Assembly (NCBI GenBank): GCA_017412605.1 | Contig: JAFPWY010000012.1 | Coordinates: 1 to 64,000 of the forward strand | Direction of reading: 5' to 3' | From: Fibrobacter sp. | Lineage (GTDB): Bacteria > Fibrobacterota > Fibrobacteria > Fibrobacterales > Fibrobacteraceae | DNA length: 64,000 nt | Part shown: positions 63,661 through 64,000 of the stretch, one piece after another | How positions within the stretch are numbered: position 1 is the stretch's first letter | Layout of the letters: every line of letters begins with the position of its first letter | Notes under the pieces: generated by a model | What the model saw: only the letters and a program-made list of their open reading frames with translations | The model's database searches: none | Told to the model about the DNA's origin: nothing | Made by a program: the position numbers and the translations under genes

Positions 63661-63684
63661 AAAAAAAGGGCAACGACGTTGCCC
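63661..63684 (-). terminator. Intrinsic terminator of the right-edge minus-strand gene
   Basis: A GGGCAAC-GAC-GTTGCCC hairpin (63668-63684) is followed, on the minus strand, by a run of seven T. It ends the transcript of the tandem-repeat gene. Confidence 0.8.
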
Positions 63685-63709: not shown

Positions 63710-64000
63710 TTATTCTTTCGTAATCTTCGGCTTTTCTATGTCGATGAGGTCTCCTGGGCGGACTCCGTACAGCGGAACGATAACGTTCTCGAAGCTGCTG
63801 CTGGACTTCGGGCGGATTTTCCCAAAACTGCTGCTGGACTTGGGACGGATGATTTGCCCACGGCTGCTGCTGGACTTGAATTTGATTGGAGGTTCAATGC
63901 CGTACAGCGGGACGATGACGTTTTCGAAGCTGCTGGAACTCAAGTCGATCGGGGGCTCGATGCCGTACAGCGGGACGATGACATTTTCGAAGCTGCTGGA
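63710..64000 (-). CDS. C-terminal end of a tandem-repeat protein with VPLYG motifs (partial)
   Basis: The open frame enters from the right edge and stops at 63710-63712, giving 96 visible residues. Three near-identical units read S-S-S-F-E-N-V-I-V-P-L-Y-G (the first two followed by I-E-P-P-I), and two shorter units read S-S-S-S-R-G-Q-I-I-R-P-K and S-S-S-S-F-G-K-I-R-P-K. At the DNA level the first two full units are almost identical, so they arose by recent duplication. The first part of the protein lies outside the window. Two readings fit: a repeat linker or fibre of a surface protein, or a multi-core RiPP-like precursor with VPLYG cores. Neither can be proven here. Confidence 0.75.
   Translation of the reverse strand, partial: SSSFENVIVPLYGIEPPIDLSSSSFENVIVPLYGIEPPIKFKSSSSRGQIIRPKSSSSFGKIRPKSSSSFENVIVPLYGVRPGDLIDIEKPKITKE

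Follow-up and report, generated by a model that had tools for sequence, protein, structure and literature searches.

What is the tandem VPLYG repeat for that closes this stretch of Fibrobacter DNA, and is it a plain linker or the substrate of a modifying enzyme? The window, i.e. the whole stretch analysed, comprises 64,000 nucleotides (C12:1-64000), and the rest of the contig was read beyond 64000 for the whole gene and its surroundings.

The repeat lipoprotein and its gene cluster

The open reading frames and translations of the window show an open frame closed by a stop on the minus strand at 63710-64000. It contains three SSSSFENVIVPLYG(I/V) units with Ser-rich stretches between them and ends in a short tail, DLIDIEKPKITKE, confirming the alternating architecture given in the preliminary description. 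As also predicted there, the gene starts beyond 64000, the whole gene reaching 64408. Its 232-aa product begins with MSIFLNRHWKKIVLSVTAAFWASC, a lipoprotein signal peptide, which is followed by a Ser/Lys-rich linker and then by the repeats (Table 1). Units 1 and 2 have a DNA identity of 86%, and all differences between them, in 6 of 19 codons, are silent, whereas unit 3 is 67-68% identical to either of them and has four amino-acid changes. The peptide is thus being conserved as its DNA drifts; the repeat is genuine, but the very recent duplication proposed earlier is wrong.

This gene closes a minus-strand run of about 15 kb at and beyond the window end, which contains 16 lipoprotein genes and two radical SAM/SPASM genes of the TIGR04133 family. 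The neighbours of the run, both named by inspection, are a RelA/SpoT-like gene at one end and an opposite-strand gene read as a glucuronoyl esterase at the other. Any maturase had been expected to lie beyond 64000, and the two radical SAM/SPASM genes lie approximately 3-9 kb upstream. Their products, 358 aa each and 82% identical to each other, score 624 and 592 bits against TIGR04133 (curated cut-off 425) and are full members of this family; no other protein of the genome is over the cut-off. Both match PF04055 and PF13186 and have the CxxxCxxC motif, within a CTLRCNLHCxHC region, and a SPASM domain. Many rumen and gut bacteria have members of TIGR04133, an unassigned, hypothetical-equivalog family of radical SAM proteins. 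The FibroRumin family, TIGR04136, which the preliminary description had named, likewise comprises radical SAM peptide maturases; it was rejected, since its best score genome-wide is 59.9 bits against a cut-off of 400.

Table 1. Features of the repeat gene and of the cluster to which it belongs (contig numbering)
Feature	Position	Strand	Remarks
Terminator-like hairpin and T-run	63668-63684	-	Just 3' of the cluster's last gene; consensus match only, terminator-like sites overall being not above shuffles
Repeat lipoprotein, whole gene	63710-64408	-	232 aa; lipobox ...AAFWASC; 3' part is 63710-64000
Unit 3, SSSSFENVIVPLYGVRPGD	63749-63805	-	PLYG codons 63764-63775
Unit 2, SSSSFENVIVPLYGIEPPI	63884-63940	-	PLYG codons 63899-63910
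Unit 1, SSSSFENVIVPLYGIEPPI	63947-64000 (unit end 64003)	-	PLYG codons 63962-63973
15 further xYG lipoprotein genes	64462-78831	-	Beyond the window
TIGR04133 radical SAM/SPASM gene	67107-68183	-	Beyond the window
TIGR04133 radical SAM/SPASM gene	71917-72993	-	Beyond the window

The signal peptides encoded in the cluster follow the pattern YKHWKKIxLALTALFWASC. Across 21 residues their mean identity is 50%, and 15 of the 16 end in FWxxC; for 41 other lipoprotein-like signals from this genome, the mean identity is 20% and none ends in FWxxC. This hints that the cluster signal peptide may serve also as a recognition leader. Those Fibrobacter lipoproteins that were scanned against Pfam and NCBIfam could not be placed in any useful family. 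There was no match to a Nif11 or nitrile-hydratase-like leader family in the partners scanned, which begin with a lipoprotein signal peptide.

x-Tyr-Gly accompanies TIGR04133

The 16 cluster lipoproteins are otherwise diverse, and the feature common to all of them is x-Tyr-Gly. There are 39 YG sites versus about 8 expected from composition, the largest number in 5000 shuffles being 19. Up to six such sites are present per lipoprotein, in Ser-rich linkers. Background genes of the same genome, sampled from 17 of its stretches and the window, are near expectation (325 YG versus 292). The YG excess recurs in loci of other Fibrobacter species, where genes were called with a codon-trained caller: 270 lipoproteins encoded at most 6 kb from TIGR04133 contain 630 YG versus 177 expected, and 248 of them have at least one, although the loci are related and the counts are not independent trials. 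In the same loci, lipoproteins farther off or on the other strand have 82 YG versus 74 expected, and other genes 320 versus 360. Genus-wide, no dipeptide is as enriched as YG; FG, WG and GY stand at 0.69, 1.0 and 0.58 times expectation, respectively. Only Tyr and Gly are fixed at the sites, with variable, small or hydrophobic flanks. In orthologue groups, which were too loosely delimited, YG columns are only slightly better conserved than other columns.

The association extends beyond the genus. Of the 168 genomes of the phylum that were searched, 90 have TIGR04133. Outside Fibrobacter, 23 genes lie directly upstream of TIGR04133 and on its strand, and 22 of them encode YG (54 sites versus 15 expected, a number reached in none of 10,000 shuffles). 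The remaining gene was called with an internal MYG as its start, and this call may be truncated. The upstream genes often overlap the enzyme gene by a few bases. Their products are built on unrelated scaffolds, including lipoproteins rich in Ser, TIGR04134 lipoproteins whose EYG follows the lipobox, transthyretin (TTR)-like proteins and secreted proteins with a T9SS sorting tail. An enzyme and xYG partner pair is present also on a plasmid of Treponema saccharophilum. A profile of the YG-bearing domain matches all nine searched genomes with an enzyme over the cut-off and none of 13 without one, two 99%-complete Fibrobacter genomes being among the latter; the linkage counts are drawn from related genomes, and the joint absence is partly explained by the fact that clustered genes are lost together. 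Taken together, we consider it well supported, and highly probable, that xYG is the target of the TIGR04133 enzyme.

Several related loci deserve mention. In another Fibrobacterota family, a 163-aa protein (L163:8747-9238) has three copies of DSVAxKYGVITPPK, so that xYG has been multiplied in tandem there independently. In the TIGR04134 lipoproteins encoded upstream of Bacteroidales TIGR04133 genes (L121-L123), xYG is frequently present twice, just behind the lipobox and again close to the C-terminus (MYGVMSAEY, ALYGVMSAEY). A radical SAM/SPASM protein (L055:9263-10348, G050:C1) is 34% identical to the cluster enzyme P0002 and scores about 273 bits against TIGR04133, below the cut-off; its 170-aa neighbour has no YG, and the enzyme was used as a negative control. 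This protein and similar ones encoded by other Fibrobacter genomes form a separate radical SAM/SPASM subfamily.

The TIGR04133/TIGR04134 rSAM/lipoprotein pair of Bacteroidota and others resembles the Fibrobacter cluster in having a full TIGR04133 enzyme and an adjoining xYG lipoprotein, and the Bacteroidota TIGR04134 partners scored also have EYG near the lipobox. However, the cluster comprises 16 lipoproteins rather than one or few, and TIGR04134 was rejected as their identity, since neither the cluster lipoproteins scanned nor the genome contain a match over 39.8 bits, the cut-off. Partners in Bacteroidota are matched by the model. The structure predicted for one Bacteroidales TIGR04134 partner is a beta-sandwich similar to transthyretin-like domains; of its two YG sites, one is at the flexible start and the other in the flexible C-terminal tail (both ends of low confidence). 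Such positions would be reachable, suggesting that xYG sites are placed where the enzyme could act on them.

Kinship with spliceases and the predicted reaction

A precedent for an enzyme acting on such a site is the splicease PlpX, which together with PlpY cuts tyramine out of X-Tyr-Gly and rejoins the chain (PMC11002830). The tags of PlpXY are PIRP-[L/G]YG-LPI and AVAA-GYG-VVF (PMC10533398). The context [P/A]-x-Y-G-[V/I/L], which matches the XYG tag of PlpX, is found at 51% of cluster sites and 47% of sites genus-wide, versus 4% in the background. The enzymes are also related. In a tree from which five long rows were removed, TIGR04133 groups with TIGR04103 and the GDL-motif enzymes with support of 100/98; with the long branches kept, support is 87/86. 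L36, G46, W200, A211, P283 and I294 are among the residues that this clade shares and that are seldom seen in other radical SAM rows. Among NCBIfam models, TIGR04103 ranks second for the cluster enzymes, by a narrow margin (140 versus 135 bits for other SPASM models), and their scores of 140 and 137 bits are far below its cut-off of 725. We take the InterPro family of PlpX, IPR026482, to be the same as TIGR04103. On a Nostoc plasmid with a TIGR04103 enzyme, the adjoining Nif11 precursor ends in GSIALYGLPPELF (...IALYGLPPELF), nearly the same as ALYGPP or PLYGVP of Fibrobacter.

PlpXY thus resembles the Fibrobacter system in its XYG target, with flanks as in the lipoproteins, and in the sister position of the enzymes; leader-independent use of the tag has been reported for PlpXY. 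By contrast, PlpX substrates have Nif11 or nitrile-hydratase-like leaders, whereas those of Fibrobacter are exported lipoproteins. In addition to its low TIGR04103 score, the Fibrobacter enzyme has no PlpY-like partner that we could see, none being matched with the Nostoc 71-aa neighbour as a query, for which there was no positive control. The GDL-motif maturases, TIGR03913, belong to the same clade as TIGR04103, and two of three Azospirillum precursors (DUF1843) have MLYG or KPYG; GDL enzymes may share the splicing target. Their precursors differ in being short and without a lipobox, and the enzyme is 28% identical to P0002. Precursors beside GDL-motif enzymes (L186:3028-3743, L184:3156-3572) carry LYG or PYG in Azospirillum and LYA or MYA in Aureibacter, near the start.

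Since sequence evidence alone cannot demonstrate chemistry, the reaction is put forward as a prediction: TIGR04133 probably excises tyramine at xYG. The enzyme would read each [P/A]-x-Tyr-Gly-[V/I/L] site in a flexible Ser-rich linker in the cytoplasm, prior to export, and removal of tyramine at each site would leave ketoamide beta-residues in a multi-site protein. The repeat lipoprotein would be a secreted protein substrate with three target sites (VPLYG), one of 16 substrates in the cluster. After lipidation, the protein would display several ketoamide electrophiles at the cell surface.

TIGR04133 might instead act on xYG by another radical SAM reaction, such as a Tyr cross-link, epimerisation, hydroxylation or oxidation. 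SPASM enzymes perform many reactions, and chemistry need not persist between sister clades. The model of a cluster enzyme is of moderate quality (pLDDT 76), and its best matches among solved structures are the RiPP radical SAM enzymes SkfB, SuiB and PqqE; a PDB search by sequence gave only distant radical SAM enzymes. Nevertheless, no constant second reactive residue accompanies Tyr and Gly as a cross-link partner, and both site context and enzyme clade match the splicease, making another reaction rather unlikely.

It is much less probable that the repeat is an ordinary low-complexity surface linker, in which YG is structural or adhesive and the radical SAM gene a bystander. Ser-rich linkers are common in Fibrobacter lipoproteins and the motif sits in one, but lipoproteins sampled elsewhere in the genome, Ser-rich ones included, have no YG excess. 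Moreover, the motif accompanies TIGR04133 across phyla on unrelated scaffolds, the YG domain and the enzyme are absent together, and the repeat peptide stays while its DNA drifts silently. The preliminary description had set a linker in a signal-peptide-bearing surface protein with no maturase nearby against a maturase substrate. The repeats do lie in the Ser-rich linker of such a lipoprotein, and the maturases are nearby; the two roles, linker and substrate, can hold together.

Equally improbable is a multi-core RiPP precursor that would be cut to set free its modified units as small peptides, as the near-identical tandem units and the independent triple repeat of L163 might suggest, given that the lipobox and Ser linkers point to a membrane-anchored protein, that many partners have a single site in or beside a folded domain, and that no dedicated peptidase or transporter was noticed on inspection of the cluster's open frames. 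What stands of the RiPP reading offered earlier is the multi-site substrate of a radical SAM maturase, with no sign of a released small peptide.

Predicted surface ketoamides and their possible role

Returning to tyramine excision, the predicted surface ketoamides might act as protease inhibitors or traps, or might bond covalently to amines. Trapping of proteases at the surface would be a reasonable putative function, because ketoamide beta-residues are reviewed as giving potent protease inhibition, as reported from Scott et al. 2022 (PMC10373908). Among the papers searched, none names TIGR04133 or TIGR04134. The title of Scott et al. 2022 says 'peptides and proteins', and that study and Richter 2024 are probably the key prior work. 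Scott et al. 2022 may already include TIGR04133, which is the main risk to novelty.

We tentatively propose, as a possibility somewhat short of even, a widespread and unrecognised form of protein splicing, in which full-size lipoproteins on the surface of Fibrobacterota, Bacteroidota and Treponema would receive several ketoamide beta-amino residues from TIGR04133 enzymes, and the cell would be covered with covalent protease traps or anchors. The common target motif and the shared clade with a characterised splicease make the TIGR04133 reaction directly testable. If the proposal is true, backbone-edited proteins with beta-amino acids would be normal surface components of major fibre-degrading bacteria.
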